A DNA stretch of 64,000 nt, taken from the NCBI RefSeq assembly GCF_000384335.2, contig NZ_KQ031382.1:3421545-3485544 (forward strand). Reading direction: 5' to 3'. The translations under genes were made by a program, and so were the position numbers. The notes under the pieces were generated by a model, which made no database searches, had not been told where the DNA came from, and saw nothing but the letters and a program-made list of their open reading frames with translations. Position 1 is the stretch's first letter. Each line of letters opens with the position of its first letter. Positions 1,273 through 42,371 of this stretch are shown in pieces. The stretch comes from Hyphomicrobium sp. 99. GTDB taxonomy: Bacteria; Pseudomonadota; Alphaproteobacteria; Rhizobiales; Hyphomicrobiaceae.

Positions 1273-1311
1273 GCGGGCGTAGTTCAATGGTAGAACGGCA
1301 GCTTCCCAAGC
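1273..1311 (+). repeat. Left attachment repeat (5' half of tRNA-Gly)
   Basis: These 39 nt are identical to the first 39 nt of the intact tRNA-Gly(CCC) at 42298-42336 and lie in the same orientation. Identity starts exactly at the tRNA 5' end and stops just after the anticodon loop. This remnant keeps the original chromosomal upstream sequence, so it marks where the tRNA stood before integration. It lacks the 3' half and cannot be a functional tRNA. Confidence 0.9.
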
Positions 1312-8720: not shown

Positions 8721-8728
8721 GCCGCCCC

Positions 8729-14700: not shown

Positions 14701-14953
14701 CGATGCCGTCCGGAGTAATAGGTAGTTCATCGAGAAATACCCCGCACTCTCCGCAAACCAAGTCACCCGGCCGCACGGGATGGCCGCTGGGGCACGTCGG
14801 ACCTATGGGCTGCGTCGTAAGCGCCGGCGCCGGTACGTAGACCGGCTCCAACGTCAGATCCCAATTGCAGGTGCCATCGCCCTCGGGGGTCTGACAGAAA
14901 ACCTCCTCGACCGGCCTCTGCTGTTTGCACTTGGGGCAGATTTTGAAGGTCAT
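8729..14953 (-). CDS. Zinc ribbon / pseudokinase / SF1 helicase / Vsr-like nuclease protein, 2074 aa
   Basis: Domains in order: zinc ribbons (CPKC near residue 6, then CPSGH...CGEC near 55-72); a Ser/Thr kinase fold (about 90-350); a middle region; an SF1B Upf1/Dna2-like helicase with Walker A GPPGTGKSQT near 964, DEAS near 1626, SGDEKQLPPTSFF, QGDERDQIIF near 1854 and LNVAITRARQ; and a C-terminal Vsr-like (MTES_1575-type) endonuclease domain near 1965-2074 with IDFAIDHP and LGIECGAHRH. In the kinase part HRDLRPEA lacks the Asn, and the DFG position reads RFG, so it is probably a pseudokinase. It starts within the stop of the radical-SAM gene. The architecture resembles Mokosh-type antiphage proteins; defence is inferred. 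Confidence 0.85.
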   Translation of the reverse strand: MTFKICPKCKQQRPVEEVFCQTPEGDGTCNWDLTLEPVYVPAPALTTQPIGPTCPSGHPVRPGDLVCGECGVFLDELPITPDGIGVPPGAGEEPQVGYGATTIIAGWEVLSLVNAAGTLAEVFHVRQEGRGEGVLTLWACEVKPDPSVYAALPALAPLPVASVLDAGEWQGRAFEVVATNGATLLAAITETWQPEIARAFVASAAAAIHAMGRAGLRHRDLRPEAFLLGGEDPAAVALCRFGQARLSNRDLDTAVPSELTRYTAPECLAGAVAPAADWWSFGIVLLERLTHGACFAGINDQAYLMSVVAHGVELPSDLSDEFLVLLRGLLFRDRAKRWQWAEVEAWLRGEPIVPPSEPPLLNTAEVSGFLLGGKSYRRPTLYALAAAQPENWDEAREQLVRGQITTWLEELKGGERMRSALRNVLRRDNVDDDTRLAIALKVLNPDMPLVLSGHIVTPHWLLAFPQEAFSFISGEAPDLLQQFGFEPWLTALSQRLDQVRKRAKLHEIELNENVLRIHALCTSRLKLEEQWEAQRRLSPDTEHKGLNSLMDRRQLTEEDLVLLLSAGKGQFIPLHELVTSAAELARREGVTAFDEQVAATLLQLPRRDVLGRLNDRIENFSRCGMQRLDEWADQYRLERRIGLPRAAVILSVPKELWRQPPKQDYVAKLLDFFEKRITTSVSRGALARMTITKTSPRIDVTELGTSRVPAAALLDQLLERSDATLPVDPGVFGRDPSLEPRLRTLVSRAELLRRDTGINGLYLGFPFVLVQPRGESVKPRIAPVLLWPIRIGMEVGQRASITVGFDRDREEVRLNPALQNVFSPEEIEKWKAARDAVLSGSTTAMSVMDQFSLLTQKVRQSELAKLPAADAKVASGTTELTSAAVLFHVTFVGQAIVEDIRQLKAIPPQGTGLEALLRVQETKRKPVLPTPAGEGLDRFTTADSDPTQDLAVLQSRSAPGLVVEGPPGTGKSQTIVNLVADAIGRKKSILIVCQKQAALDVVFKRLQREGLDNRIMLVRDESKDRRAVIQEVRNQVTGLFTNGAPSTVWQRQRNEVLERIKRLESQLNSHQDALHRRDDVSGLTYREIVGELILIEGLGPLPDVLSLRKILGTMTAEHVQAVNEACASLAAVWLPSEFENNALAQLRAFGWDQQHIAQFFADLEGFVVVERTRPPAGTDGAFDFEDASALRDWADQAYPVLSTLTESQVDQLGFLIGAFVNEQGPQTVGPNASATLTTIRNELTALPPVKRDAGLAELVDGLSDLALEGWIALTGEALRKPSLFGRLSLSRYSKRKKVWQFLRQSTPVISDSVAGSFLSAAEHERSLRDLRARLNTVFVELGFEQQEFAKAQVRELTHYLDGLQASLEYVAEAATYIEASPVLKETLLALRTRRAEAVRQHFVQVQDALARHAGRTSSLSALNALAPWFEVEWLAACHNRIRANQSTADLITPIVNALPSLVPYQQFRVRVRDQGGGVLKVFAAMRSTASWLKTLDAARLADAVGRLIRRESLLAWKSRLEHADQRLLSDDHELETAVSSLAAAEAELQQINRKAIKSNIHLPSLRTLEEWTDVTRFTGPRALRLREFMDRASEIGLMELRPVWLMGPDVASRMLPLKPALFDTIVYDEASQMPVEFAVPSLFRGNVVVVSGDEKQLPPTSFFSNRDVADDEDGEVDEGGEDLSDEESTAAMDSWNRREIKDCPNLLDLAKSSLPTVMLKVHYRSAYRELISFSNNAFYDGQLNVPVRHPQAELLRQKPLELIQVDGLYEERTNKAEADRVVDLLAGLWLGRGKTIPSVGVVTFNRDQADLIEMGLEQRAEEDSVFRAAYIRERQRTDAGEDMGFFVKNVENVQGDERDQIIFSTTFGRNGRGTFRRNFGVLSQGGGERRLNVAITRARQKVTLVTSMPINEVSGIFTSGAKPQTPRDYLQLYMAYVLAMTAGNYDVAQRLLDQTLKDRHRADEHEIAADDGFLNSVQHYLESLGVRPTRASDGGAFGIDFAIDHPSRGTYGLGIECGAHRHPILAHARAREIWRRGVMQKAIPVIHRVSLRGWYHSRVAEQARLQQAIELALR

Positions 14954-15609
14954 GGGGCTACCCCCTTAGAGCTCGGTCCTTTATCCTCGGACGTTGATAC
15001 ACGGTGCCCCTCAAGGTCGAGTGAGGCTGCGATTTGGCGAAACGCGTTTTGGCTCGGCACGCCGGCAAACCAGACAGAGCCGTCTTCATCGAACATCACG
15101 TCGAACTTCGGCGCATAGGAGCTCGGCACAGTGAAGGGCGCGAATCGATCCGCGCCGAGCGACGTCAGCAGATGCAGCCGCTGATTATCACTGCCCCGCA
15201 AGGGTAAGCTCTGGGCCATGCCGGCCACAAATGGATCAGTCATCAAGGCATCGATGAGCCCGTCTGCGGCAGATAACTCGCTATGCAGTTTCTCGAACGG
15301 ATAGCCGCTATAGACGAAGATGTCGCCGCTGAACTCTCCGCGAATGGCTTTCAGGAGTGTCACTAACGCGAGCGACTGGTCAAATGGCTCGCCTCCGGAA
15401 ACAGTTATGCCATCGGCGATCCGTAGCCATTTCTGTAATGCGCCCATCACCTCACCAATGGTCGTCGTATGGCGACCAGCAGCCCAGGTGTCCGCAGAAA
15501 TGCAACCCGGGCAGCGGATTGAGCAGCCTTGCAACCAGATGCCGATGCGCTTTCCTGGCCCAAGTGTTGTTACAGGGAAATGCAGTCTGGAAAGCGCGAT
15601 CTCGATCAT
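14950..15609 (-). CDS. Radical SAM protein, 4Fe-4S activase-like
   Basis: The 219-residue protein carries CSIRCPGC (Cys29, Cys33, Cys36), the CxxxCxxC site that binds a 4Fe-4S cluster and S-adenosylmethionine. It also has ITVSGGEPFDQ, the GGE motif contacting SAM. Size and motifs match the NrdG/PflA activase group, which installs glycyl radicals, but no glycyl-radical enzyme is encoded nearby. Overlaps of a few nt at both ends tie it to the AAA+ gene upstream and the helicase gene downstream. The C-terminal 70 residues (FDVMFDEDGSVWFAGVP) are an extra domain. Its substrate in this operon is unknown. Confidence 0.82.
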   Translation of the reverse strand: MIEIALSRLHFPVTTLGPGKRIGIWLQGCSIRCPGCISADTWAAGRHTTTIGEVMGALQKWLRIADGITVSGGEPFDQSLALVTLLKAIRGEFSGDIFVYSGYPFEKLHSELSAADGLIDALMTDPFVAGMAQSLPLRGSDNQRLHLLTSLGADRFAPFTVPSSYAPKFDVMFDEDGSVWFAGVPSQNAFRQIAASLDLEGHRVSTSEDKGPSSKGVAP

Positions 15610-17453
15610 GCGACGCTCCGCAACTCGATACGTGTCACCTTGCCGGGAACGACGGCGCTGATATTCGCGCGGCTTCCTGATTTGATGCCGGCATCAAATA
15701 GCGCGCGAGCCAGCGGATTGATGAGATGCGCTTCGATCTGATTCCGGATACCGCGTCCGCCATTTGAGAGATCCTTGAGGCACAAAGCCCGAAGCGTTGC
15801 CAAAGCTTCTTGGAAAATCTCTATGAAGATGTCTTTGTCAGCGAGGTCCTTGATCGTACTGGCCACCATGGCTTCAAAGATTTCTAACGCGACCGGATCG
15901 CGAATGAAATCGAACACGATGATGTTCTCGCCCATCCGGTTCAGCAGCTCTGGCCGATTGATGACCTGCTTGAAGTGGCGGTCGATTTCGCTGCGAACCT
16001 TGCTCTGAACGGCGGAGAACTCCTCGCTCGGCAATACATTGGAAACACGTTCGCCGTCAGTGCCCTGGCGATAAATACCCAGATTGGAAGTGAACAAGAT
16101 CAAGGCTTCAGAGAAATAGACTCGTTCGCCGCGCCCCGAGGTGAGCAGGCCGTCATCCAGAACCTGTAGAAACTTATCCAGGATGCGGGGATGTGCCTTC
16201 TCAATCTCATCGAAAAGAACGACGCTGAACGGCTTTTCGCGGATGGCGTTCGTAAGTTCTCCGCCAGCGTCATAACCAACATATCCAGGCGGAGCACCAA
16301 TCAAACGCTGGTCGGCGTGTTCGGCGCTGAACTCCGACATATCGAAACGGATGTAGGCGCTCTCGTCGTTGAACAGCAGCTGCGTGATGGTTTTAGCCAG
16401 TTCAGTTTTACCGACACCGGTCGGTCCCGCTAGGAAAGCCACTCCCCTTGGCCGCCCACCGCGTCGTCCTCCGCCAACGCCGGTAATGGCGCGCTTGATG
16501 ATGTCGAGCACATGCACGACAGCATGGTCCTGCCCCTTGACGCGAGCCGTGATGAACTCTTCACCATCCCTGATTTTTTCCTGAGGTATTTTCGCCCATG
16601 GGTCCTCGGTGACCCCTACCTTGTAGTTGCGGACGGCATCCTTGACCTTTGTCACGGGAATGTTCTCGCGACGGGCGAGTACGGCGATCGCCGTGAGATC
16701 AAGCAGCAAAAGCCCCTCTGTTTGCTCAACGAACTCGCGGCCGAGTGTCTCCGCGATTTGGCTATCGAGCGTCGCTCCCTGAGGCATCGTACGCAGCAGG
16801 GACGGGACTAGGACGTTGCGCGCACTATTGTCAGGCTTCGGGATCGGGATGCTGCGGATACGCGGATTATCGATCAGGAACCAATCAGGAAGGTTTCCCT
16901 CACGCTCGGCGATCCACACAATCGTGTTGAACGCCGGAGCTCTGTTTGGACCGGCAGGACGGGCTTTCGCCCGATGTGCCTGAACTAGAGCGTTCGCGAA
17001 CAGCCGATGCTCCCCCTCGCTCAACGTATCCGACCGCACTAAGAGCCGCGACGCGAAGTCGACCAGCAAGGCGACGGGTGGCCCGTCCAAGCTCACGAAG
17101 CGGCCCAATATGTCCATCAACGCGGTTGGGCCCGCTGGTGATTGACCGGATTCACTGACAGTAAGTCCAAGTCGCTCGAGCAGCTGTCGGCTTGCCGTTA
17201 TCTCGTCTGGGTTGAGACCGAACTGACCGAACCCATTCACGAGATCATAGACGATTGTGCCGGCATATCCCGCCGCCCTCAGCTCCCGGTGAACACAGTC
17301 GCTCAGCGACACCGCGCTGTAGGTCCCGGTGCTCGTCTCGCTAACCTGCAGGTCTCTTACATTGCCCGAGAAAACGAATTGGCTTTTGAGGGGAACGTAG
17401 CGCGCAAAATCCCGAAGCCATCGCGGCTTCTCAAAATGACTTAGTCCGGCCAT
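15606..17453 (-). CDS. ClpB-like AAA+ ATPase
   Basis: The 615-residue protein has a degenerate N-terminal AAA-like half (FVFSGNVRDL, ALLVDFASRL) without a P-loop. A full ClpB/ClpA second-module ATPase follows: Walker A GPTGVGKTELAK near residue 343, pore loop GYVGYDAGG, Walker B VVLFDEIEKAH, sensor LFTSNLG and a C-terminal small domain with GGRGIRNQIE. It probably forms a hexameric unfoldase. It is the first gene of a four-gene operon with radical SAM, kinase-helicase-nuclease and coiled-coil genes. The 90-nt upstream gap carries an AT-rich palindrome. Confidence 0.85.
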   Translation of the reverse strand: MAGLSHFEKPRWLRDFARYVPLKSQFVFSGNVRDLQVSETSTGTYSAVSLSDCVHRELRAAGYAGTIVYDLVNGFGQFGLNPDEITASRQLLERLGLTVSESGQSPAGPTALMDILGRFVSLDGPPVALLVDFASRLLVRSDTLSEGEHRLFANALVQAHRAKARPAGPNRAPAFNTIVWIAEREGNLPDWFLIDNPRIRSIPIPKPDNSARNVLVPSLLRTMPQGATLDSQIAETLGREFVEQTEGLLLLDLTAIAVLARRENIPVTKVKDAVRNYKVGVTEDPWAKIPQEKIRDGEEFITARVKGQDHAVVHVLDIIKRAITGVGGGRRGGRPRGVAFLAGPTGVGKTELAKTITQLLFNDESAYIRFDMSEFSAEHADQRLIGAPPGYVGYDAGGELTNAIREKPFSVVLFDEIEKAHPRILDKFLQVLDDGLLTSGRGERVYFSEALILFTSNLGIYRQGTDGERVSNVLPSEEFSAVQSKVRSEIDRHFKQVINRPELLNRMGENIIVFDFIRDPVALEIFEAMVASTIKDLADKDIFIEIFQEALATLRALCLKDLSNGGRGIRNQIEAHLINPLARALFDAGIKSGSRANISAVVPGKVTRIELRSVA

Positions 17454-17542: not shown

Positions 17543-18907
17543 CTAACTACAAGCACCAACATGACCGAACGCGTACGGTCCGGAAGTCATGGTGACAGCC
17601 TCGATGCCATCCGGATCAACAAGACTGCCAGCAATGCTTTGATAGGATCGACCACCATTGAGGCGGCGGAGCAATTCACTTAGAGCAAACGCTGCCGCGA
17701 CTAGCCCGACGAAGGGAACACCGACAGAACGGGACGCGAGTTGGGCAAGTCCGCAGGTATCCAGACCTTTCGCTTTGAGGGCTTGGTAAGCTGGTTGGTC
17801 AGAAACGTTAGGTCCGCCAGGGACCTTATCTTGCGACCAGAGACGATCTGCATTCAGCGCAGACGGAAATGTGTGCATCGCAAATGCGCGAAAGCCCTCC
17901 GGCCCGCCGCCCAGCCCGGCCTCGACCACGAGACCAAAACCCGCCCTTTCCAGAGAAGCGCGAGAGAGAGGATTGTCCACGCCACAGAGTGCGACTGGCG
18001 GATCATGAGGCGAGACGCGGGTCCATGTGCCGAACCGCTGTTCGTTGATCGCAACGTCCATCCCGCGCTGCTCCAGCCAGGACGCCACAACGCGTGTCTT
18101 ATGCTTGCCTGCCCGGTCGAGTGAAGAAAGCACCGATGTGCTGTCATTCGAGGGCGCGATGCGATCGAAATCCTGCAGCATGAGCCGCACCTGCCCTCGA
18201 TCACCATACGGCAGGCATGCGAGAAGCCAAGCTGTTGCCTGCCCCAGATTCCCCATTCCGATCAGCCACAGTGCAGACGGCAGGTAAGTAAGTCCCGGTC
18301 CTTTGGCATCCGCGTCCAGCCAATGGCTCTTTGGCGACCAAAGCGAAAATCCGCACGAACGGCGACCCGCCATCGGATGATCGCCTGCATGGTATGAAAA
18401 GGCCTCTCCAATACACGCGCAGGCGGCTATGACGGGCGCAAGCGGCATGGCCCCGTCGTCGCACAATGCCGAACCATTGCGCGCAGGGATTACGCCGCCG
18501 CACCAGCCCGACCATAAAAGATGCCACGCCGGCAAACCCGGTCCGGCATGTTCAACATCACCGATCAGCGCGAGCGGCAAAGATGGCGAAAGGGATGAAA
18601 CAAGCTTTCCGCCCAGTTCTTGGACGGCCTCACGAACCGACGGCGCTTCGGCAAGGGGAAGAAGAAGGGGTGCATCGATGAGATCCGCGACTTCAATGCC
18701 GCCGAGGAACGTGCGGCGTGCGGCGTTCACTAAGGTCAGAAGCGCGATCTGGCCGTTGCGTGTCTGCTGCGCCTTCTCGGAAATGCGCACGCCTAGGCCA
18801 AAGCCAGCAAGCATTTCGATCGCTTCGTCCTGCGTCGCTGCTTTGCCGTTGTCCATGAAGAGCTTCGCGGTGCGGTGCATGTGCTCGTGATCAATCGGGA
18901 GGCCCAT
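17543..18907 (-). CDS. E1-like (ThiF-fold) ubiquitin-activating protein
   Basis: The 454-residue protein has an N-terminal domain of about 200 residues and a ThiF/E1 adenylation domain with LWLIGMGNLGQA near residue 217. The latter continues with the acidic LMLQDFDRI strand and a basic KHKTRV segment. A candidate catalytic Cys is in GLDTCGLAQ near 384, followed by the SRSVGVPFVG helix of E1-like enzymes. It would adenylate the C-terminus of the adjacent ubiquitin-like protein and pass it to the E2-like protein. The ATG at 18907 has GGAG upstream and lies 2 nt after the JAB stop. A longer frame to 19012 lies inside the JAB gene and is rejected. Confidence 0.8.
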   Translation of the reverse strand: MGLPIDHEHMHRTAKLFMDNGKAATQDEAIEMLAGFGLGVRISEKAQQTRNGQIALLTLVNAARRTFLGGIEVADLIDAPLLLPLAEAPSVREAVQELGGKLVSSLSPSLPLALIGDVEHAGPGLPAWHLLWSGWCGGVIPARNGSALCDDGAMPLAPVIAACACIGEAFSYHAGDHPMAGRRSCGFSLWSPKSHWLDADAKGPGLTYLPSALWLIGMGNLGQATAWLLACLPYGDRGQVRLMLQDFDRIAPSNDSTSVLSSLDRAGKHKTRVVASWLEQRGMDVAINEQRFGTWTRVSPHDPPVALCGVDNPLSRASLERAGFGLVVEAGLGGGPEGFRAFAMHTFPSALNADRLWSQDKVPGGPNVSDQPAYQALKAKGLDTCGLAQLASRSVGVPFVGLVAAAFALSELLRRLNGGRSYQSIAGSLVDPDGIEAVTMTSGPYAFGHVGACS

Positions 18908-18909
18908 GG

Positions 18910-19431
18910 TCAGCTCCAGAATCCGCAGTAGATGAACCCCGGGCGGCGAGCGGGGCTGCAATCTGTCCATTGATGACTGCCGCGATATTCGAAGACGCCA
19001 AGTCGATCCCACGGGACCGGCGGCGCTGCGAAGTCCGGCGCTATCATCGCGATATGCCCTTCCCTCGCGACCATCGGGTTGGTGCGGTCAGAATGGCTTT
19101 GAAACGCCGCGCCGGGATGGGTGTGGATGTCGGCGACCACGGTCAGGCTGCGGGATCGGCAGATCGACCACAGCTTCGAGAACGCATCAGCGCGAAGGAC
19201 GCAGACGCCGGTCCGGTAGACCTGCGGATCAAGCTCGTCGTAGAACACGAAGTCGTTGACGTTGCGGATGTCACCCGCGCGGCTGCCGAGAAGAAACGCG
19301 CCGGCTTCGTGGACGCCACCGCCACGTCGATGCAGCCCGTCTGTCAATCTGCTCCAGACGTCAGGCGCGCAATTGATCCTGTGCCTAGGCGCCGCGAACG
19401 CCCGTATAATCGCTTTGATCGAGAAGTTCAT
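18910..19431 (-). CDS. JAB/MPN metalloprotease (deubiquitinase-like)
   Basis: The 173-residue protein shows the JAMM zinc site. Its Glu is in [10 protein letters not shown] near residue 42, and HTHP with a Ser and Asp ([13 protein letters not shown]) lies near 101-113. In bacterial ubiquitin-like operons such peptidases trim the ubiquitin-like precursor or release it from targets. The ATG at 19431 lies inside the end of the E2-like gene with a 47-nt overlap. A later start is possible but no better codon is visible. The gene order ubiquitin-like, E2, JAB, E1 matches the multi-ubiquitin neighbourhoods described by comparative genomics. Confidence 0.82.
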
Positions 19432-19870
19432 AAATCTGATCCAGATAACAGGTTATGCCAATGGCCGGCTGCCAGAGGCGGTTGGGATGCTGGTGAAGCC
19501 AGTCACTATGACCTTCGAGCGAGATGCGGTCGCAGGGAAGATACAGACACGTGCCGCCCTTCCACTCGGGCCGGAAGATGGAAGGGACAATCAACTTGCC
19601 ACCAGGCCACCGTGCCGGAGCCAGCGGCGCGTTGGCATCGAAATCCCACGGCTGCGCCGTCACGGGTGATAGCCGGTAGCCCGAGCACTGGAATCGGAAC
19701 GCGTATTCGGCCGGGGATTCCGGCCGTGGTGCCGCCGCAATCGCTATGACGGCGTACGGCCAGGCCACGGACAGCAGACGCCACTTCCCTTCGACCTCGC
19801 CGCACCGAAAACGCGGTGCGGCAAGATCTGCGAGCAGCAACAACTCGCCTGGCGAATTGATGAGAGACAC
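19385..19870 (-). CDS. E2-like conjugating protein
   Basis: This 161-residue protein is divergent but has the E2-like pattern: a beta-rich N-terminal half ([12 protein letters not shown]), then [11 protein letters not shown], in which Cys108 occupies the position of the E2 G-x-[IL]-C-L active site. A Trp-containing segment and a C-terminal helix follow ([19 protein letters not shown]). Its position between the tandem ubiquitin-like and JAB genes supports the call. It would accept the activated ubiquitin-like protein from the E1-like protein. No E3-like gene is visible. The start is 5 nt after the upstream stop. Confidence 0.65.
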
Positions 19871-19874
19871 GGCC

Positions 19875-20369
19875 TTAACCCTCCACGCGCTTTACGGGGA
19901 CGAGATCGAAGCAGACGCTGCACTCGCGCCCGTTCGTAAGCTCATGTAACGGGGTGTCGGTGGCGGGTTCGCGGTCCGTGCCGCAAAGGCGCAGCACGTG
20001 CTCGCCGGCGTCCTTCGGATCGAGCTTGAGCTTGTCGACCGCCCACGCCTTGACCTTACGAACGCGCGCGCCCGGGGCAAACTTGTGATCGATGGTGCGT
20101 TCAAGGAAATTGACCGAGACCGCAATCTTGCGACAGCGGCTGAGATGCAAGCGGCAACCGCGCTTAATACCCTTCACCGTCTTCTTGTGATCGTCGAGTT
20201 CGTGGCCATCCTCGTCTTCATTGACGAAGAGCAGCGCGTCTGCGTCTACCGTGACGCCGTGTTTTGCCATCGCATCGAGAACGTCGCCAACGGTGCTATC
20301 CGCGAGCAGTTCGATCTCAATGATGCCGGGTTTGTCCTGTACTTGAAGAAATGCCAGTGCCTTGTCCAT
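19875..20369 (-). CDS. Tandem ubiquitin-like (multi-ubiquitin) protein
   Basis: The 164-residue protein has two beta-grasp repeats, about residues 10-78 ([20 protein letters not shown]) and 82-160 ([20 protein letters not shown]). Both match the multi-ubiquitin family found beside E1, E2 and JAB genes. The C-terminus is KRVEG, ending with a single Gly instead of Gly-Gly. No residues beyond it need trimming, so the JAB enzyme may serve mainly in deconjugation. Purine-rich AAGGGAGAG lies just before the ATG. A dedicated promoter-like element at 20399-20428 lies upstream, matching the one before the sigma-like gene. Confidence 0.8.
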
Positions 20370-20398
20370 GATGCTCTCCCTTTCGCGCTCTCAGGGAG

Positions 20399-20428
20399 TA
20401 AGCGAAGCCACATGGAAAAAAGCGGAAG
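20399..20428 (-). promoter_or_regulatory. Sigma-specific promoter-like element before the ubiquitin-like operon
   Basis: On the minus strand CTTCCGCTTTTTTC (20415-20428), 8 bp, then TTCGCTTA (20399-20406) lies 30 nt before the ubiquitin-like start codon. The same 14-mer, the same 8-bp spacing and TACGCTTA occur before the sigma-like gene at 25078-25107, with TGAG at the same distance downstream. Duplication with exact spacing is strong evidence for a shared two-part promoter. Confidence 0.72.
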
Positions 20429-20430
20429 TG

Positions 20431-23400
20431 CTAAGCACCGCAGATAAAGTAATACGGGCAGGCCGGGCAATGCCGGTCGGAGCGATCTGGCGGAAAGGCG
20501 CCGTTCTCGATGCCGGTGATGGCGTCCACGTATTCTCCGAGCTTGTCAGCCTCTTTCTTATGGACCGGCACCGATACGGATAGGGCATGCGCCGCGTATA
20601 ACGTTTCGACAGAGGCGCGGTTGGCGCCGTATCGATCGTTGGCCCCTTTTCTCAAGAGCGCGTAGACCGCATTGTCGGGCTCGGATTTTGTCTGTCTTCC
20701 GGTGCGGATCCGCTGAATACGAACGGAGCCGTCTGCACCGATGACGACTCTGTCCGGTCTAACGGACACACTTCTGCCGCTCACATCGACCGACCACTCG
20801 TCACGCTCATAGCGGGCATCTTCACCGCCAACGAGCGTTGCCATGGCAGACACCATCGCATCGGCGCTTTTGCGATAGAAGGGCTCGAAGCCGTGATCGG
20901 CTGGACCGCGTTCGGACCAGTCGCGATCGAGTTGAGCCATCGCCGTAACGGCATCTGCGGGTTCCTGCCTCGCGCGCGCGTCTTCGAGCCACGAGATCGT
21001 GCGATAGACGCAGCCGTGAAACTTCACATAAGCGGAGCTGCGGCCGCCGCCCGAGATCCCGTCGACGAACTCATAGCGATAGCGGCGCGGGCATTGCATA
21101 TAGGTGCTGAGTTCGCGCTCTGTGTAGAACTGTTTGGTGGTCACGTTCACGCGTTCAGGCGCTGCACCCGGCAAGAACGTAGACCCATGCCGTGATTGCT
21201 GCACGCTCGCGACCCTGCCTACGAATGCCGATGCGTTTGACTTTCTGACAGCCGTGTATTGCTCGGCCCGGCTGATGCAGAGGTAGTCGCGGGCCCGAGA
21301 CAACGCTACGAAAAACAGGCACTCTTCTTCGGCTGCGTGATCCTCGCTTGCCGTAGCGAGTGCGGGCAAAGTCGGCGGCGGCGGACAGCGGACTGGATGC
21401 GCACGTGCCGGCATATAGCCGGCAGCCAGTCCCGGAAGGTGGACGGCCGTGAACTCTAGCCCTTTGCTGCCGTGGATGGTCATGACGCGCACGGCGTCGA
21501 GGTCGGACGCTTCGGACGCGACCGGCCGGAACATTCGGTCGTCGTTCAAGGCTTCCAGGCGGCGAACGCGATCGAGAAGTGTGCGGCGCGACGCGTGGCC
21601 TCTGTCAGGATGGTCGATGCACAGCTTGAGGAATTGATAGATCGCAATCAGGCATTGCTGCGATTTGCTGTCGTTCGCTTCGAGAAGCGGGTCCAGATAT
21701 TCGCTGCGCTCGACAAGATACGTGGAAAGCATCGACCACGCCGAGCTCGCCGGACCCATGCCTTGCAGATGCGTGGCCAGGAGGCTGAGCCCCCTCTTCC
21801 CGTCTTCGGTGAGGTCGGCAATGGTGTCTAGGTGTCGGATCGCATCCAATACCGTCTGGCCGGTCTCCGCCACGCGGGAAAGCACCTTGACGGCATCGCT
21901 GCGGGGTATGCGGTATTGCAGGAATCTCGCAACCCGCATAAGGCCGACACCGCCAAATTCAGCGTCGAGAGCCAGAAGGGATTGGAGGTCACGGATCTCG
22001 TCACGCTCGAACAGATCGCCAAGATAAAGCAGCGGCACGCCCATGCTTTCGAGGGGGCCGCAGATTCTCGCGAGAGTGAGATGAGATCGCGCCAGGATGA
22101 CCTGGTCTTCGTAACGGATGCCCTTCGCCCGCAACTCTTCGATGTTTGCCTTTATGGCGGCGGCTTCGGACGTTACGTCCGGTGCAACGACGATTTTGAC
22201 GCCGCCGCTATCCTGGCGGGCCGGAATCCATGAAGGCGCCATGGCGCCGTTTGGCATCGTGCGCGCGAACGAACCAAACGCCGTGACCACATCGGGGACC
22301 GATCGATAGTTGTACTTCAGGGAAAGCGTCTCGCCGCCGAACTCTTCGGTGAATCGCGTCACGTTGCCGGGTTCGGCGCCCCGGAACCTGTAGATCGACT
22401 GTCTGGCGTCGGCGACCACCCACACTTCAGTCTCGGGCTTGCAAAGCGCGCGAAGAAACTGCGCGCTCGCAAGATTCACGTCCTGGTACTCATCGACAAG
22501 AATATGCGCGTAGCCATCGCGATAAGTCTGTGCAATGTCGGCATGCTCCGTGAGCATTCTGGCGGGGAGCATCACAAGGTCGCCGAAATCGACCGCATCA
22601 TTCTCAAGCAACAGCTCTTCGTAGACCTTGTAAATCGAGGCAACTTCCTTCGCTTTCTCTCCGATCTCGCGCACGGCCGGGTCGGCTGACGCGCATGCGG
22701 CGTCAGCCTCGTTCATGTATTGCTGCCAGGGGATCATCTCATCCTTGCAGCGGGAGATGGCCCGCAGGACTTCGCGGAGTTCAAGGGCGGGATCATAGAT
22801 ATTGAGAAAGTGATGCAGGTCGAGGCGGGTCAGGTTGTTCTCAAGCAGTACAAGACATCCGGCCTCGTCGAGCAGCTTGACGTTGATGGTTCGGCCCACG
22901 CGATCGGCGTGCTTCGCAAGAATTTCCCAGCCGAAGGCGTGGAACGTTCCGGTCCACATTTCAATCGCGGCACGCGGGTTCATGGCGCTGATGCGCTCCC
23001 GCATCTCTTCAGCGGCCTTGTTCGAGAATGTCAGCGCCAGAATAGAAGACGGCGCTACGCCATCGTTGATAAGGCGTTCAAGGCGGTGCACAAGCGTTCT
23101 GGTCTTGCCCGTGCCCGGGCCGGCGTCCACCAACAGTGGACGCCCGCGCCACTCAGCGGCTTTGCGCTGCGATTTATCAAGCTCGTATCTTGGCGCCGCA
23201 ACTTCGGGGTCACGCGGCCGCAGTGGCGGAAGAAGTAGCGCTCTTACGGCCTGGTTCATGACGAGGCCGAATGGCAGGCCAAGATCGCGCGCGATGCCTG
23301 CAATATCGCGCTTTCCTGCCAGAAGCTCGGTGCGCAGCCAATCGGAAGGACAAAGGAATTCGCCGGCGAAGATGTCGGCCTGAACCTCTTTGCGCTCCTT

Positions 23401-23769
23401 GGGCGAGTAACCCTGCGCCGCAGCAACGCCGCCGTCAATCTTATCCCCGCCCAGACCCGGCGCGATCATCGTCACATCGCTGCGCGGATCGCGATGCAAT
23501 TCGAAGTGGCCGATTTCGTGGGCGGTAACGACCGCCTCATCTTCGCGGGTCTGCCCCTGGGCGAGGTGAACGATGAAGGCTGGGCGATCAAGAAAGCCCA
23601 ATACCCCCTCGCCGGCCCTCGTGCCGGGTTCAAAATATCTGATCTCGAGATCATGGATTAATAGCGAGGCAGACAGCAACGCCGATGCCCTTCTGTCTCC
23701 AGAAGCGCGATCGAGCGATTGTCCGTGCAAGGCGCGCGCAGCTAACCGGATATCCCGCCAGGCGTCCAT
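20431..23769 (-). CDS. ImmA/IrrE peptidase - UvrD helicase - PD-(D/E)XK-like fusion, 1112 aa
   Basis: Residues 1-180 form an ImmA/IrrE zinc peptidase with AHEIGHFELH near 83 and EVQADIFAGEFL near 130. A UvrD/Rep SF1A helicase follows: Walker A DAGPGTGKTRT near 216, LTFSNKAAEEM, DEYQDVN near 428, RQSIYRFRGA, and VMTIHGSKGLEF with VALSRARD. The C-terminal third looks like an AddB/RecB-type nuclease with CPRRYRYEF and terminal CPACPYYFIC, which suggests an Fe-S cluster. The catalytic strand reads VRIQRIRTGR in place of the usual D-x-K, so nuclease activity is doubtful. It overlaps the upstream XRE-like gene by 28 nt. Confidence 0.85.
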   Translation of the reverse strand: MDAWRDIRLAARALHGQSLDRASGDRRASALLSASLLIHDLEIRYFEPGTRAGEGVLGFLDRPAFIVHLAQGQTREDEAVVTAHEIGHFELHRDPRSDVTMIAPGLGGDKIDGGVAAAQGYSPKERKEVQADIFAGEFLCPSDWLRTELLAGKRDIAGIARDLGLPFGLVMNQAVRALLLPPLRPRDPEVAAPRYELDKSQRKAAEWRGRPLLVDAGPGTGKTRTLVHRLERLINDGVAPSSILALTFSNKAAEEMRERISAMNPRAAIEMWTGTFHAFGWEILAKHADRVGRTINVKLLDEAGCLVLLENNLTRLDLHHFLNIYDPALELREVLRAISRCKDEMIPWQQYMNEADAACASADPAVREIGEKAKEVASIYKVYEELLLENDAVDFGDLVMLPARMLTEHADIAQTYRDGYAHILVDEYQDVNLASAQFLRALCKPETEVWVVADARQSIYRFRGAEPGNVTRFTEEFGGETLSLKYNYRSVPDVVTAFGSFARTMPNGAMAPSWIPARQDSGGVKIVVAPDVTSEAAAIKANIEELRAKGIRYEDQVILARSHLTLARICGPLESMGVPLLYLGDLFERDEIRDLQSLLALDAEFGGVGLMRVARFLQYRIPRSDAVKVLSRVAETGQTVLDAIRHLDTIADLTEDGKRGLSLLATHLQGMGPASSAWSMLSTYLVERSEYLDPLLEANDSKSQQCLIAIYQFLKLCIDHPDRGHASRRTLLDRVRRLEALNDDRMFRPVASEASDLDAVRVMTIHGSKGLEFTAVHLPGLAAGYMPARAHPVRCPPPPTLPALATASEDHAAEEECLFFVALSRARDYLCISRAEQYTAVRKSNASAFVGRVASVQQSRHGSTFLPGAAPERVNVTTKQFYTERELSTYMQCPRRYRYEFVDGISGGGRSSAYVKFHGCVYRTISWLEDARARQEPADAVTAMAQLDRDWSERGPADHGFEPFYRKSADAMVSAMATLVGGEDARYERDEWSVDVSGRSVSVRPDRVVIGADGSVRIQRIRTGRQTKSEPDNAVYALLRKGANDRYGANRASVETLYAAHALSVSVPVHKKEADKLGEYVDAITGIENGAFPPDRSDRHCPACPYYFICGA

Positions 23770-24380
23770 GGGGAGTCCCTTCCAAGCCAGTAATTCTTTT
23801 TCTCTTCACTCATGTCAGTGTTCAGGATGACGGCCTCATATGATTGCGTGTGAACTTCGGGCTTGTTCGATGCTTTGGCATTCCCGAGCATGGGCGCTGA
23901 AAGCGTTCGGGCGATACTTTGCTCCAAATCGCTCGCGGCACTTCCAAGCGCATTCGACAAAGCCTGAAGCAAGCGGGAGTCTATCGGCAGTCGCAACCGT
24001 CCCGCGTTGAGTTCGCCCAGAACCAGACGATCGATCTCAATGCGGCGCGCGAGAGCCGGTATCGTGACTCCTGCCCGTTCCAGCAGCTGGGAGAATGTCT
24101 CGCCGCCTTTTGCAGCCTCCAGCGATCCCGCCTTTTCGGCGTCGTAGATCGCGTTCAACGTCCAGCTCCAGTTGCGCGCGATATCGGCCTCGTCAGGTTC
24201 GACGCCATGCAGTTCCGGCTGCGCTTTCCAGGAAAGCTGATGCTCTGCATGGGCAATGATATCGTCGGCGAATTCCGGATATCGGCTCGTCCACTCCAAA
24301 ATCTGTTCAGCAGTCGGGTGCTCGCAAGCCTCATGGAAGGCGAACAGAACTTCATCTCTGCGGGTGTCGTTCGTGCTCAT
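23742..24380 (-). CDS. XRE-like regulatory protein, probable ImmA substrate
   Basis: The 212-residue protein begins with a helical part of about 75 residues (ILEWTSRYPEFADDIIAHAE) seen in proteins encoded beside sigma factors. A helix-turn-helix-like region follows near 95-145 (FSQLLERAGVTIPALARRIE, VLGELNAGRL). It overlaps the sigma-like gene by 4 nt upstream and the ImmA-UvrD gene by 28 nt downstream. An HTH protein between a sigma factor and an ImmA-family peptidase suggests an anti-sigma or repressor that the peptidase inactivates. That role is inference from ImmR/ImmA-type pairs. Confidence 0.6.
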   Translation of the reverse strand: MSTNDTRRDEVLFAFHEACEHPTAEQILEWTSRYPEFADDIIAHAEHQLSWKAQPELHGVEPDEADIARNWSWTLNAIYDAEKAGSLEAAKGGETFSQLLERAGVTIPALARRIEIDRLVLGELNAGRLRLPIDSRLLQALSNALGSAASDLEQSIARTLSAPMLGNAKASNKPEVHTQSYEAVILNTDMSEEKKNYWLGRDSPWTPGGISG

Positions 24381-25042
24381 TTCGACTCTCCAACCTTCGA
24401 TTTGATGAAGACAAGCATCTCAGCAACCCATTGGCCGGCTGTCTTCTCACTGACCCCCAGTACCCCGCTGATCGAGGTCGTCCCCTTACCCGGTTTCAAC
24501 GGCACACCCTGCAGGTGCAGCCGGACCGCAAGGCGTTTGCGTTCATCCGGCACCAACCGTAAAATTCGCTCCAGATCTGCCCGGAGTTCCGCAAGCTCTG
24601 TGGCGCCGGTAGCCGCGATCATACCTTCGGCGTCATCAAGAGAGATCGAGTCCGGTGTCGTCGCCAGCTTCTTGCGCTCTTCCCTGACCGCATCGATCGT
24701 CCTGGTCTTCACCACGGCCCCGTAGCGCGTCTCCATCTGCCTGCCGTCTGCAGAATTCGGATCGAGCACTGCCGCTATTAGCTGATGGTGAACCCGCTCA
24801 GTGATTTCCTTCCCGTTGTTCCGCCATCCGCTGTTGACCCGGTTTCCGACATCTTTCAGGATGATCCGGTTGAGGAACGCCATCAGCTCACTGAATACGC
24901 GCTTATCCGCCTGGATCGCACGGTGTCGCACAGCCTTGATGACGTCTTCACGCCTCAGCCGTTCGATCTCGCCGGACGCTGCAATCACGTCCGACCATCC
25001 TTTCAAGTCGTCGGGCGGAGGCGCCCCCTTCGTTTCACTCAT
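24377..25042 (-). CDS. Sigma-70-family-like (ECF-type) factor
   Basis: The 221-residue protein has a region-2-like helix bundle (about residues 35-130, with VNSGWRNNGKEITERVHHQL and VVKTRTIDAVREERKK). A region-4-like helix-turn-helix follows near 165-215 (ILRLVPDERKRLAVRLHLQG, VLGVSEKTAGQWVAEML). No sigma 1.1 or region 3 is present, as in ECF factors. It heads the operon with the XRE-like and ImmA-UvrD genes. The promoter-like element at 25078-25107 is repeated before the ubiquitin-like gene, suggesting that the factor drives itself and the conjugation operon. Confidence 0.7.
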   Translation of the reverse strand: MSETKGAPPPDDLKGWSDVIAASGEIERLRREDVIKAVRHRAIQADKRVFSELMAFLNRIILKDVGNRVNSGWRNNGKEITERVHHQLIAAVLDPNSADGRQMETRYGAVVKTRTIDAVREERKKLATTPDSISLDDAEGMIAATGATELAELRADLERILRLVPDERKRLAVRLHLQGVPLKPGKGTTSISGVLGVSEKTAGQWVAEMLVFIKSKVGESK

Positions 25043-25077
25043 AATCAGCCCTCGCCCTGATGGCCCTTCTCACCCTC

Positions 25078-25107
25078 TAAGCGTATCGGCGCAGAAAAAA
25101 GCGGAAG
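25078..25107 (-). promoter_or_regulatory. Sigma-specific promoter-like element before the sigma gene
   Basis: On the minus strand CTTCCGCTTTTTTC (25094-25107), 8 bp, then TACGCTTA (25078-25085) lies 35 nt before the sigma start codon. It shares the 14-mer, spacing and downstream TGAG with the element at 20399-20428. It probably mediates autoregulation. Confidence 0.72.
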
Positions 25108-25379
25108 CGGCCCGTCATCTAATTGATTTCGCGGCCGGTTCTCAAGCTGCAACACACTGAAAGGAGGTCATCGCATGTACTGAAATGTAAGGGGGGCTGA
25201 AGACTGTCTCCGTAGGACATGGAGGCACGACGTCTAGTTTCGGGTCAGCAATGTGCAGGCCGTATCTTAACCGCAGACAGACTTAGGCAGTAACACTGCC
25301 GTAGGATGTCCGCGCCGACCCTGCGGTCGTCCGAAATTGGGCTAACGTGAGCAGGTTTGTGGCCGCCGACGCGAGGCCG
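25108..25379. other. Intergenic region between the sigma operon and a broken gene
   Basis: It contains a strong plus-strand ribosome binding site (AAGGAGG at 25161-25167) followed by a two-codon ORF (ATG TAC TGA at 25175-25183). No longer gene is supported. The rest shows no clear structure. Confidence 0.35.
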
Positions 25380-33010: not shown

Positions 33011-34066
33011 ATGTCCGAGATCGCAAACAATATCGCCCTCTCTCTGCATCCGACGACATCGCACCTTTCAGAACATGCCCGTCTCTATAGCGCTGCGTCG
33101 CTGCGGCCAACAACGCGCCGCGCTTATGCAGCGGCACTCGAGGGCTGGCTCGAGTGGCGAGATCAAGAAGAGCTCGAACCGGCCCTTCCGGTCGATGTCG
33201 CAAACTACATCGCTGGGCGCGCCGCAGCCGGTCAATCCGTTTCAACGTTGCGCACTATCATCGCCGCACTAAAAGCCGGTCACGAAGCGAAAGGCTGGAC
33301 GTTTGACTCATCGTCTCCAGTAGTCAGCCGCGTACTACGCGGCATTGCCAATTTGGAGTACCGGCTCCCTCGACAGGCCGAGCCCTTGCACGGGGCAACC
33401 TTACTGCGCATCTTGAACGCCATTGCTTCCGTCGAAAGACCATCAATCATCGATCGACGCGACGCGGCCCTCCTCGCGCTCGGCTACACCTTCGCGCTTC
33501 GACGTTCCGAGTTGGTGGGTCTTGACTTCCACGAACAAGGTCGAGGTGAACAACGCGGAACGGGCGTCCTCCGGATGAAAGAAAGAACGATCGAAATTGC
33601 ATTCGCAATCTCGAAGACAGCGAGCGGGCAACCCGAAGTCGTCACGGTTCCTCGTGACGAAGCGATTGAAACCGCGAAAGCCATCGAAGCTTGGCTCGAA
33701 GTATCAAACATCCACTCAGGGGAGCCCCTTTTCCGGAGCGTGTCGAAGAGTGGAAAAATTCGCCAGCGACTAAGTGGACAGAGCGTCTCATTGATTGTGA
33801 AAGCGCGCTTCGCCGAGCACGCAAGGATTGAGCACGGGTTCTCCAGCCACTCCGCCAAGCTCAAGGCGCAACACTATTCCGGACATTCCCTTCGCGTTGG
33901 CTTCTGCGTTTCCGCCGCAGAAAATGGCGCCGACATCCGCTCAATCGCGAGTGTCACACGGCATCGTTCGTTGGTCATGCCGTGTCGGTACGCACAGCGC
34001 GCCGATCAAATTCGGACATCCCCCCATCGCCTTCAAGGAATTGGGCTCAAAAGCATGGAGCAATAG
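33011..34066 (+). CDS. Tyrosine recombinase/integrase (second)
   Basis: The 351-residue protein has an N-terminal SAM-like core-binding domain (about 25-110, TTRRAYAAALEGWLEWRD). In the catalytic domain the first Arg is in FALRRSELVGL, HSLR is in GHSLRVGF, the second His/Arg in TRHRSLVM and the nucleophile Tyr in PCRYAQRAD. It is less similar to classical phage integrases than the recombinase at 40798 and resembles element-borne site-specific recombinases. Two short genes follow with a 2-nt gap and an ATGA overlap, forming a small cassette. It may mobilise a nested element or resolve multimers. Confidence 0.8.
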   Translation: MSEIANNIALSLHPTTSHLSEHARLYSAASLRPTTRRAYAAALEGWLEWRDQEELEPALPVDVANYIAGRAAAGQSVSTLRTIIAALKAGHEAKGWTFDSSSPVVSRVLRGIANLEYRLPRQAEPLHGATLLRILNAIASVERPSIIDRRDAALLALGYTFALRRSELVGLDFHEQGRGEQRGTGVLRMKERTIEIAFAISKTASGQPEVVTVPRDEAIETAKAIEAWLEVSNIHSGEPLFRSVSKSGKIRQRLSGQSVSLIVKARFAEHARIEHGFSSHSAKLKAQHYSGHSLRVGFCVSAAENGADIRSIASVTRHRSLVMPCRYAQRADQIRTSPHRLQGIGLKSMEQ

Positions 34067-40528: not shown

Positions 40529-40984
40529 ATGTTTTCGAGCGCGCCGTCATCTGGTGAGCATCATGATGGTCTTGTCATCGCCGACGCGATCCCAGAAACC
40601 TTGCTCAAGGATGTTGAGGCGGTGTTCGCCGGCCGCCGTTATCAGACAACCGGCGTAGTCGCTCATCTGCTTGGGATGACCCCGGTGCACCTACGGCGCT
40701 TGGCAAATGCAGGCGCCATCGGCTCGGTGAAGCTGACGGGCTGCCATCGCCGGTTTCTCAAGGAAGACGTTTTGATGTACTTGAGGAGCAAACGCACATG
40801 TCAGTCTTCCGTGCCCTTCGCCGAGACGGAACTCCAGAGCCGTATTGGCGCTATTCGTTCAAAATGCGCCTCCCTGGGGAACTCAAATCCCGCAAGTTCC
40901 AAGGCTCCACGCGCCAGAAAACGAAAGCTGCAGCCCGCGAATACGAAGAGCAGATACGTCGGAAGGCAGCGACAGGACAACTAG
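40529..40984 (+). CDS. Excisionase-like MerR-type HTH protein
   Basis: Residues 38-90 form an excisionase/MerR-like winged helix: YQTTGVVAHLLGMTPVHLRR, LANAGAIGSVKLTGCHRRF, LKEDVLMYLRS. This is the usual form of directionality factors and DNA-binding partners encoded beside integrases. The frame continues past the HTH into a basic tail overlapping the integrase start by 187 nt. The tail may be a genuine second reading frame or an extended stop. It is co-transcribed with the integrase from the promoter at 40466. Confidence 0.65.
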   Translation: MFSSAPSSGEHHDGLVIADAIPETLLKDVEAVFAGRRYQTTGVVAHLLGMTPVHLRRLANAGAIGSVKLTGCHRRFLKEDVLMYLRSKRTCQSSVPFAETELQSRIGAIRSKCASLGNSNPASSKAPRARKRKLQPANTKSRYVGRQRQDN

Positions 40985-42018
40985 CGACGCTGATGACCAT
41001 CGGCGAGGCGACGGAGCGCTATCTCGATGAGATCCTCCCGACGTCGCCCTCAGACGAAGCTCGCCGGACCCAGCGCCTGCACATGGCCGAGGTTGTGCGT
41101 TACTTCGGTGCCGACACGCTCCTGACGTCGATCACGCAAGCGACCGTCTCCGGGGCTGCCAGCAAGCGCGCCAAGCAGCCGCTGACGCGTTGGAAGCGGG
41201 TGACGCCATTCGTCCGCAAGCGCGACCGCACACCGGCAACCCCGGAAGCCGTTTACGAGCTTCGGTCGATCCAGCAACTGCCGACGCCGGGTTGCGTCAA
41301 TCGCCAGATCATCGAACCGCTGCGCCGCGTCCTCCGCCGCGCTAAAAAGCAGTGGGGCGTCATGATCGACCTCGATCAGTTCACCTGGGGCGGCCGCGAC
41401 GGCGTCAAGCGCAAGGAACCCGACGAGCGCAACCGCGAGCTGTCGCTCAAGGAGGAGCTGCGTTTCTGGGGCGCTCTGCCGAGGGGCTATCACGACATCT
41501 GCGAACTCTTCATCATCTCGGGCAAGCGCCAGTCGATCTGGCTCGGGCTCGAAAAGGACAAGGTCGATCTCGAGGCCCGGACGATTACCTTCCGGCTCCT
41601 GAAGAAGCGCTCGGTGCAGATCGTCACCCAGAGGCTCACCCAGCGCGAGTACGAGATCGTCCGCAAGGCCTACGCGGAAAGCCCGGCCGAGTGCCCGTTC
41701 GTCTTCACGATCGAGAGCGAGCGGAATTTCGAGCACGGCGCCATCCGCGCCATCTCGGCGCAGATGCTCCGCCGCGCCGTCACGGCCGCCTGCGCAAAGG
41801 CCGGGATCGAGGACTTCCACCCCCACGACTTCCGCCACACGTTCGGCTCACGGCTGGCGCGGGCGACGAAGAACATCAAGCTCGTCCAGAAAGCGATGGA
41901 TCACTCGAACATCAAGTCGACGCTGCGCTACGTCTCCGTGCAGCAGGAAGAGATCGTCGAGGCCCGGGGCCGCGTCCAGACGGCCAGGGCACCCTTGCGG
42001 CTCGTCGCCGCTGAGTGA
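40798..42018 (+). CDS. int: Tyrosine recombinase, island integrase
   Basis: The 406-residue protein has an N-terminal arm-binding-like part, a core-binding domain (about 60-150) and a catalytic domain. The latter shows the first Arg in ISGKRQSIWLGL, HDFRHTFGSRL for HxxR, and DHSNIKSTLRYVSV with the final His and Tyr. All residues needed for catalysis are visible. It lies 280 nt from the intact tRNA-Gly and points towards it, so it is the likely enzyme for integration at that tRNA. An intrinsic terminator follows the stop. Confidence 0.92.
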   Translation: MSVFRALRRDGTPEPYWRYSFKMRLPGELKSRKFQGSTRQKTKAAAREYEEQIRRKAATGQLATLMTIGEATERYLDEILPTSPSDEARRTQRLHMAEVVRYFGADTLLTSITQATVSGAASKRAKQPLTRWKRVTPFVRKRDRTPATPEAVYELRSIQQLPTPGCVNRQIIEPLRRVLRRAKKQWGVMIDLDQFTWGGRDGVKRKEPDERNRELSLKEELRFWGALPRGYHDICELFIISGKRQSIWLGLEKDKVDLEARTITFRLLKKRSVQIVTQRLTQREYEIVRKAYAESPAECPFVFTIESERNFEHGAIRAISAQMLRRAVTAACAKAGIEDFHPHDFRHTFGSRLARATKNIKLVQKAMDHSNIKSTLRYVSVQQEEIVEARGRVQTARAPLRLVAAE

Positions 42019-42297: not shown

Positions 42298-42371
42298 GCG
42301 GGCGTAGTTCAATGGTAGAACGGCAGCTTCCCAAGCTGCATACGAGGGTTCGATTCCCTTCGCCCGCTCCA
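42298..42371 (+). tRNA. tRNA-Gly(CCC)
   Basis: A full cloverleaf is visible: acceptor GCGGGCG/CGCCCGC, D stem GTTC/GAAC, anticodon stem GCAGC/GCTGC with loop TTCCCAA (anticodon CCC), T stem GAGGG/CCCTT with TTCGATT, discriminator T and encoded CCA. The first 39 nt are repeated at 1273-1311. After integration the 5' half and upstream region come from the element, while the 3' half is chromosomal. Confidence 0.95.

Follow-up and report, generated by a model that had tools for sequence, protein, structure and literature searches.

A conserved front end of sigma-like factor, Xre-type protein and protease-helicase that may control the BilABCD ubiquitin-like operon of Hyphomicrobium sp. 99

How is a bacterial ubiquitin-like conjugation operon switched on, and do the regulator-like genes in front of it belong to its control? 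The question is raised by a stretch of 64,000 nucleotides from Hyphomicrobium sp. 99 (contig NZ_KQ031382.1, positions 3,421,545 to 3,485,544; hereafter the window, whose numbering is used throughout), in which seven genes running from 25042 to 17543 on the minus strand encode a sigma-like protein (SIG), an Xre-type protein (XRE), a fusion of an ImmA/IrrE protease with a UvrD-type helicase (UVR), and the conjugation proteins BilA, BilB, BilC and BilD (Table 1). Our reading, to which we assign a probability of roughly 0.6, is that BilABCD stands under a dedicated, self-amplifying sigma switch that would be fired by a DNA-sensing protease-helicase.

The original prediction for this block, made from the sequence alone, placed sigma-like, XRE-like and peptidase-helicase-nuclease fusion genes directly before the genes of a ubiquitin-like protein, an E2, a JAB protein and an E1, and the layout is as it claimed, with all seven genes on one strand. 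The overlaps that it saw between most genes are limited to three of the six junctions (SIG/XRE, 4 nt; XRE/UVR, 28 nt; BilB/BilC, 47 nt), and gaps separate the remaining ones (UVR/BilA, 61 nt; BilA/BilB, 4 nt; BilC/BilD, 2 nt). BilD probably starts at the ATG at 18907, after the stop codon of BilC, and the 489-aa open reading frame from the GTG at 19012 is probably an over-extension.

The conjugation half is BilABCD, an already known ubiquitin-like system. The four proteins match the PADLOC profiles of BilA (full-length), BilB, BilC and BilD over nearly their whole length and in the gene order A-B-C-D, which confirms the proposed E1, E2, JAB and ubiquitin-like assignments. Pfam places BilB in DUF7665 (8e-60) and gives a weak UN_NPL4 match for BilA, a modifier for which the Bil system calls for two tandem ubiquitin-like domains, while ThiF (8.5e-6) and Prok-JAB (3e-4) fall below its cut-offs. 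Residues C113, E119, H121 and H126 of BilB reproduce the CEHH spacing of the Bil E2 (C, +6 E, +8 H, +13 H) given in the accessible part of PMC11354881; among 87 family members the catalytic cysteine is kept in 81 and the first histidine in 85, and the other two positions vary. The JAMM ligands of BilC (H103, H105, S112 and D115, in HxH...SxxD) are present in 88 of 88 proteins and E42 in 87, as are, in all 88, the nucleotide loop GxGxLGQ of BilD (G217, G219, L221-Q223) and its C385, presumably the catalytic cysteine. A C-terminal glycine closes 65 of 87 BilA proteins. With the PADLOC matches and the catalytic residues in place, this half is an ordinary member of the known system: the bacterial ISG15-like BilABCD has the same four genes and catalytic residues, and the window differs by the addition of SIG, XRE, UVR and a shared promoter motif, the accessible text of PMC11354881 describing the four Bil genes only. 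The label of a multi-ubiquitin operon is ruled out, as Multi_ubiq (PF14452) has no match among the window proteins or in the organism's own genome and the ubiquitin-like protein is BilA.

The expectation that the sigma and ImmA-UvrD genes accompany conjugation genes elsewhere was borne out. The Bil sample comprised the best 80 of 201 relatives in the genome collection and leans to the kin of the seeds; 12 loci were too short upstream and were left out, leaving 68 informative ones. SIG, XRE and UVR all lie upstream of Bil in 62 of the 68, with UVR split into two open reading frames in five (L021, L028, L033, L076 and L088). Two of the remaining six have SIG and XRE only, three have a UVR-like match only (remnants in L018 and L066, a stand-alone ImmA gene in L054), and one has none. 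By their record labels, the loci of the sample come from Pseudomonadota, Acidobacteriota, Chloroflexota, Planctomycetota and Nitrospirota. The triad also stands directly upstream in nine of ten plasmid loci first found by BilD similarity, L008 being without it, and seven of these ten plasmids are of conjugative type.

The same association is seen from the side of UVR. A profile search, in which every seed except L096 came from a locus beside a ubiquitin-like operon, found UVR in six of the 398 phylum genomes (E ≤ 1e-150) and in five of the 385 genomes searched for the class (E ≤ 1e-120), the organism's own genome counted in both. At each of the nine other loci, SIG and XRE precede UVR and a ubiquitin-like operon follows it. 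The XRE profile retrieved the same six phylum genomes (6/396), these searches scoring two (UVR) or up to seven (XRE) candidates per genome. Seven of the nine operons are of the multi-ubiquitin/E1 kind, six of them with DUF6527, and two are Bil. We take the DUF6527/multi-ubiquitin operons to be Bub, and the SIG-XRE-UVR front end is shared by 12 such loci, with multi-ubiquitin, another E1 and mostly DUF6527 in place of BilABCD. Among eight plasmid loci picked from 40 listed UVR matches, a Bub or Bil operon is present in seven and IS66 takes its place in L096. Conversely, a multi-ubiquitin gene occurs in 12 of 396 genomes, four of which (G190, G246, G319 and G340) are UVR genomes, so that most multi-ubiquitin operons appear to use another regulator; the other eight have no triad within the stretch examined (a contig of just 3.4 kb in G236), and three of them give weak UVR-profile matches. 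The UVR tree, which was built quickly and has a single long branch (L052), shows at least three switches of the Bil/Bub label on starred branches: the front end has been swapped between conjugation types. The pairwise distances of the seven proteins correlate with r of 0.79-0.94 over 69 loci, shared descent being uncontrolled. Chance or defence-island co-location was considered and is ruled out by the neighbourhood counts (62/68 and 9/9) together with the co-occurrence of XRE and UVR in genomes.

The two halves are further connected by a bipartite motif, TTTCCGGTTT-N12/13-nCGATTAA, that precedes bilA and usually also SIG. In the UVR-bilA gap, with a median length of 102 nt, it takes the form aTTTCCGGTTT-N12/13-nCGATTaA. 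The matrix was trained on 61 non-redundant gaps of this kind, and the own-genome locus (L001) and L070, whose record is shared with L004, were excluded from motif and tree counts. In the 200-nt stretches upstream of SIG the motif reaches at least 12 bits in 54 of 74 loci, a score that 6.1% of shuffled sequences and 4.8% of random stretches of 200 nt also attain. Five-fold cross-validation recovered 63 of 77 bilA-side and 44 of 70 SIG-side sites (1.8% in random 120-nt controls), in a held-out test that is not fully blind because the seeds were picked by eye after viewing both promoter sides in 18 loci, and in which kin of the held-out loci remained in training. Where a locus has both sites, they covary: across 52 such loci 16.1 of 20 positions are alike (28 SIG clusters), a value that none of 10,000 permutations attained, and the spacing is equal at both sites in 42. 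The motif also precedes bilA in 4/4 loci with SIG and XRE without UVR and in two loci with a UVR remnant only; none was found before bilA in loci with a helix-turn-helix (HTH) gene and an ImmA protease (0/4), in single-HTH loci (0/2) or in L081. At nine of 12 multi-ubiquitin loci the output side scores among the top 3% of random windows, and at three of 12 the SIG side scores among the top 4%.

In the window itself both copies read CTTCCGCTTTTTTC-N10-CGCTTA and have 20 fixed bases and the spacing in common. The bilA-side site has the top motif score of the whole 64 kb (23.0 bits), and the pair was also returned as direct repeat D2 by an untargeted repeat search. A strict pattern written from both sites, which it thus finds by construction, matches only at 20397-20429 and 25078-25107, with no third copy in the 4.1-Mb genome at up to three mismatches (the reversed pattern, as a control, gives one match per strand). 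Because no third copy is found, the SIG regulon may consist of just two promoters. The prediction that SIG reads its own promoter and the bilABCD promoter is strongly supported by sequence.

SIG is predicted to be an extracytoplasmic function (ECF)-like sigma factor, and the proposal of an own sigma factor holds for the family, with weak support for the window protein. The latter matches TIGR02937 at 8e-4, below the cut-off, and has no Pfam match at 0.01, whereas Sigma70_r4_2 is detected in 25 of 46 family members. A Foldseek search with its AlphaFold model (pLDDT 89.8) gave no match at E ≤ 0.001, the best one (0.025) being a WhiG sigma complex; the re-aligned rows are almost all sigma factors and span regions 2 and 4. 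The model of XRE (pLDDT 81) contains an HTH at residues ~90-161 that resembles CapH, DdrO and ImmR among many other Xre proteins, the fold search having barely covered the N-terminal domain. The near-invariant columns of XRE, L12, P35, P163 and P174, all lie outside this HTH.

The fusion proposed for UVR stands as to its protease, its helicase and the PD-(D/E)XK fold, and its nuclease activity is doubtful. Pfam detects Peptidase_M78 (1.5e-10), UvrD-helicase (2e-67), UvrD_C (4e-26) and PDDEXK_1 (1e-11), the nuclease fold being also backed by a PDDEXK_1 match at 7.5e-13, and PADLOC gives GajB-like matches. Across 83 full-length homologues, all 83 keep the HExxH motif, the candidate third ligand E128, the K/T of Walker A, the DE box and four cysteines. 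By contrast, the D-x-K motif of active AddB/AdnA-type nucleases is degenerate: position 1020 is R in 68 of 83 homologues and D or E in none of the 81 listed, where the aligned column has D in the AdnA-type 6ppu_A and A in both 6ppj_A and 9np6_A; at position 1022, which falls in the K column, 67 of the 83 have R and 14 have K. Because the alignment to 6ppu_A is weak (E 0.05), we grade the nuclease part as probably catalytically dead.

At the level of sequence, the unit is conserved, SIG has a sigma-like fold, the motifs are paired and covary, and UVR keeps its protease and helicase residues and has a degenerate nuclease motif; on this basis a mechanism can be proposed. In the resting cell XRE, whose gene overlaps that of SIG, would keep SIG or its promoters off. 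UVR would engage abnormal DNA, such as ends or single strands arising from phage attack or damage, by means of its helicase and the probably dead nuclease fold, and its ImmA protease would then cut XRE. The freed SIG would amplify its own operon and flood the cell with BilABCD, which would conjugate BilA to its targets. Cleavage of XRE is proposed because ImmA/IrrE proteins cut HTH repressors when bound to single-stranded DNA (ssDNA): according to the accessible parts of the respective articles, ssDNA activates the cleavage of DdrO by PprI/IrrE (PMC10904395), and CapP, activated by ssDNA binding, cuts CapH (PMC13373217). We infer the restraint exerted by XRE, the sensing of DNA by UVR and its cutting of XRE. 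A broader proposal, that a private sigma switch made of a DNA-inspecting helicase-protease, an anti-sigma-like target and a two-promoter regulon forms a self-amplifying, all-or-none circuit swapped between Bil and Bub, is tentative, and we would place it a little short of even odds.

Known switches resemble parts of this arrangement. CapH+CapP, as set out in the accessible text of PMC13373217, likewise pairs an HTH protein with an HExxH protease of the ImmA/IrrE type beside an immune operon, and other Bil loci have such an HTH+ImmA pair where the front end would be; in the window, however, the protease does not stand alone but shares one protein with a UvrD helicase and a nuclease fold that is probably dead, and a sigma factor is added that would exert positive control through a dedicated promoter. 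The PprI(IrrE)-DdrO system of Deinococcus is also a protease-repressor switch, with an ssDNA signal like that proposed here, but it is a two-protein switch, no helicase fusion or sigma factor being mentioned in the available part of PMC10904395. In CapK+CapS, reported beside Bil too, anti-sigma-like proteins control immune operons after DNA damage; it consists of a kinase and a STAS repressor, and the portion of PMC13373217 at hand describes no own sigma factor, protease or helicase for it. As neighbours of Bub, the same portion reports CapW, CapH+CapP or CapK+CapS; the word 'helicase' is absent from it, and neither 'helicase' nor 'sigma' appears in the main text, as far as available, of Iyer 2006 (PMC1779556). 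No description of the SIG-XRE-UVR front end of Bil or Bub was found in the open-access literature.

Other regulators occupy the same slot at some loci. An HTH gene with a stand-alone ImmA protease adjoins bilA, upstream or divergently, in L054, L151, L152 and L155. Among eight plasmid Bil loci of greater distance, other regulators are also frequent: HTH+ImmA in three, a single larger HTH gene in two and SIG and XRE without UVR in one; at one distant plasmid locus UVR is accompanied by a SIG match ~2 kb further up, beyond an insertion sequence (IS), with no XRE match, and at another IS66 lies upstream and only BilD was matched. In addition, three metagenome protein clusters (P0062-P0064) join the N-terminal domain of XRE to an S24 peptidase of the LexA type and, by eye, are without the HTH; a viral scan returned no relative of them, and 297 genomes of the order gave only the window XRE at E ≤ 1e-25. 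They are possibly a self-cleaving form of the switch. The HTH+ImmA pairs in this slot, together with the LexA-type fusions, suggest proteolysis of XRE as the trigger, which would be carried out by a partner protease here and by self-cleavage in the fusions.

Gene order, promoters and the replaceable position all argue for a control module rather than a second effector. We presume that published Bil work, in which E. coli was reportedly protected by bilABCD alone, used strains that include Caulobacter sp. RHG1 (L013, where the triad is intact), Collimonas sp. OK412 (L018, where it has decayed) and Paraburkholderia caffeinilytica (L152, with HTH+ImmA); if both points are true, the front end is control and not effector. 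The alternative, that UVR is an anti-phage effector whose helicase attacks phage DNA in a two-armed, seven-gene defence with SIG and XRE as mere regulators, draws on the UvrD-family helicases of known defence systems, to which the GajB-like matches belong, and on the near-constant position of full-length UVR beside ubiquitin-like operons (9/9 genome and 7/8 picked plasmid loci). We consider it rather improbable: the D-x-K motif has been lost whereas HExxH is invariant, the gene is placed after two regulators and before the output promoter, and UVR is missing from four loci with SIG and XRE and replaced by HTH+ImmA pairs elsewhere. A tie of UVR to the conjugation chemistry, either as the preferred target of BilA or as an E3-like adaptor recruiting the E2 to phage or DNA complexes, would account for its presence beside both Bil and Bub through at least three label switches; a specific link is suggested by the contrast with CapH+CapP regulators, which are reported beside CBASS and other systems (PMC13373217, accessible part). 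Yet the Bil loci with HTH+ImmA or SIG and XRE only have no UVR, and a Pfam scan of the seven window proteins found no E3-like domain, which makes this a long shot. Longer odds still attach to an independent mobile defence or stress module that is merely often found beside ubiquitin-like operons. L108, with XRE and UVR and no ubiquitin-like gene in ~8 kb downstream, and L096, where the triad is followed by IS66, speak in its favour, but the motif before the conjugation genes covaries with that before SIG, all nine genome loci are joined, and the distances of the seven proteins correlate, with the caveat on shared descent given above.

A closer contender leaves the circuit in place and changes the role of XRE, which would be a DNA-binding promoter repressor while SIG is constitutively active, cleavage then amounting to derepression as in a CapH+CapP system with a sigma factor added. 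Its odds overlap with those of the sigma switch, and on its own we regard it as unlikely. The resemblance of the XRE HTH to those of CapH, DdrO, ImmR and further Xre proteins is in its favour; the near-invariant columns outside the HTH and the HTH-less LexA-type fusions stand against it and fit a protein-binding role. Several observations weigh against the sigma switch itself. Having an HTH, XRE could act as a repressor or co-activator instead of an anti-sigma factor. UVR is dispensable or replaced in some loci, since at least four (L037, L039, L091 and L149) hold SIG and XRE without it, and the UVR profile could miss remote UVRs elsewhere. A SIG-side site at 12 bits is missing from 20 of the 74 Bil loci, and the SIG-side site of the window (16.8 bits) is no outlier by the general matrix, unrelated window sites reaching 18.0. 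L035 has a divergent SIG gene, yet its bilA side scores 8.7 bits, which 22% of random windows reach; the SIG-side motif of L037 is weak (8% of random windows), and L008, without the triad, has a weak motif (reached by 3%). Finally, the SIG promoter is recognisable in only ~3 of 12 Bub-type loci, so that self-amplification is not general.

Table 1. Features of the window, in window coordinates
Feature	Coordinates	Strand	Evidence or remark
SIG, ECF-like sigma factor (predicted), 221 aa	24377..25042	-	
XRE, N-terminal helical domain and Xre-type HTH (residues ~90-161), 212 aa	23742..24380	-	proposed anti-sigma or repressor and protease target
UVR, ImmA/IrrE (M78) metalloprotease, UvrD/Rep helicase and PD-(D/E)XK fold with 4-Cys motif, 1112 aa	20431..23769	-	Pfam
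BilA, ubiquitin-like modifier, C-terminal Gly (VEG)	19875..20369	-	PADLOC 1.3e-52
BilB, E2-like (DUF7665)	19385..19870	-	PADLOC 3.2e-61
BilC, JAMM-type isopeptidase	18910..19431	-	PADLOC 4.3e-66
BilD, E1-like	17543..18907	-	PADLOC 1.6e-165
Predicted SIG-type promoter before SIG	25076..25108	-	bipartite motif, 16.8 bits
Predicted SIG-type promoter before bilA	20397..20429	-	bipartite motif, 23.0 bits
Left attachment repeat of island	1273..1311	+	39-nt perfect direct repeat with 42298-42336
Island tyrosine integrase	40798..42018	+	Pfam Phage_integrase 1.3e-20; 280 bp before tRNA-Gly 42298-42371
ClpB-like AAA	15606-17453	-	
NrdG-like radical SAM	14950-15609	-	
Kinase / DUF4011 / helicase / MTES_1575 protein, 2074 aa	8729-14953	-	PADLOC PDC-S37
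Protein without assignment, 453 aa	7359-8720	-	

The operon lies in a 41-kb island (1273-42336), marked by the integrase and by a 39-nt repeat that equals the 5' half of the tRNA-Gly; a second integrase is found inside it at 33011-34066. Two genomes of the same genus, G1005 and G1010, have the left flank no more than about 200 bp from tRNA-Gly, and in them the right flank of the window is not beside tRNA-Gly. A search with P0062, whose N-terminal domain matches XRE, returned at E ≤ 1e-25 the window copy only (1.9e-28) and no match in the other four genomes of the genus that were listed. The island and this absence suggest that the operon is probably mobile cargo. A separate four-gene operon on the minus strand (7359-17453) is a candidate defence system, and a layout alike in kind and sizes is present, without Bil, on a Rhizobium plasmid (R. 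leguminosarum, L165). Its ClpB-like gene was considered as part of the Bil unit and rejected, as no motif of at least 14 bits precedes it on the minus strand, the genes after bilD differ between plasmid loci, and its own operon occurs without Bil in L165.

Variants of the neighbourhood were observed at individual loci. The viral contig L108 (1-4316), with phage-tail-like open reading frames by eye, holds XRE and a divergent full-length UVR, and a sigma region 4 is seen, again by eye, at its cut left end; a phage-borne copy, a hijacked regulator and a cargo edge are candidate explanations. In L102 (13223-14425) a multi-ubiquitin protein fused to a Prok-E2_E domain follows a SIG-XRE-UVR triad. 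The conjugative-typed Klebsiella pneumoniae plasmid of L166 (4756-11663) has UvrD-helicase, multiubiquitin, ThiF and DUF6527 genes annotated in a row, with two small genes upstream. Two Bil loci of the HTH+ImmA kind have a gene annotated as 'exonuclease domain' that directly follows the protease (L151:5006-6412 and L155:5041-6456), and an SbcD-like DNA repair exonuclease and an AAA/SMC/YhaN ATPase are annotated near the ubiquitin-like operon of seven plasmid loci (L002, L004, L010, L011, L092, L098 and L150).

The covarying sigma-promoter pairs could serve as orthogonal expression parts. For the Bil family, the four-gene cassette is often the output half of a seven-gene unit, and tests of bilABCD alone may therefore miss the trigger. 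On how bacterial ubiquitin-like defences are silenced and fired, the module described here would give a specific answer that experiments can address: a cognate sigma factor and its predicted promoters, a protease whose active site is known and for which there is a likely target, and a motor engaging DNA that may act as the sensor.

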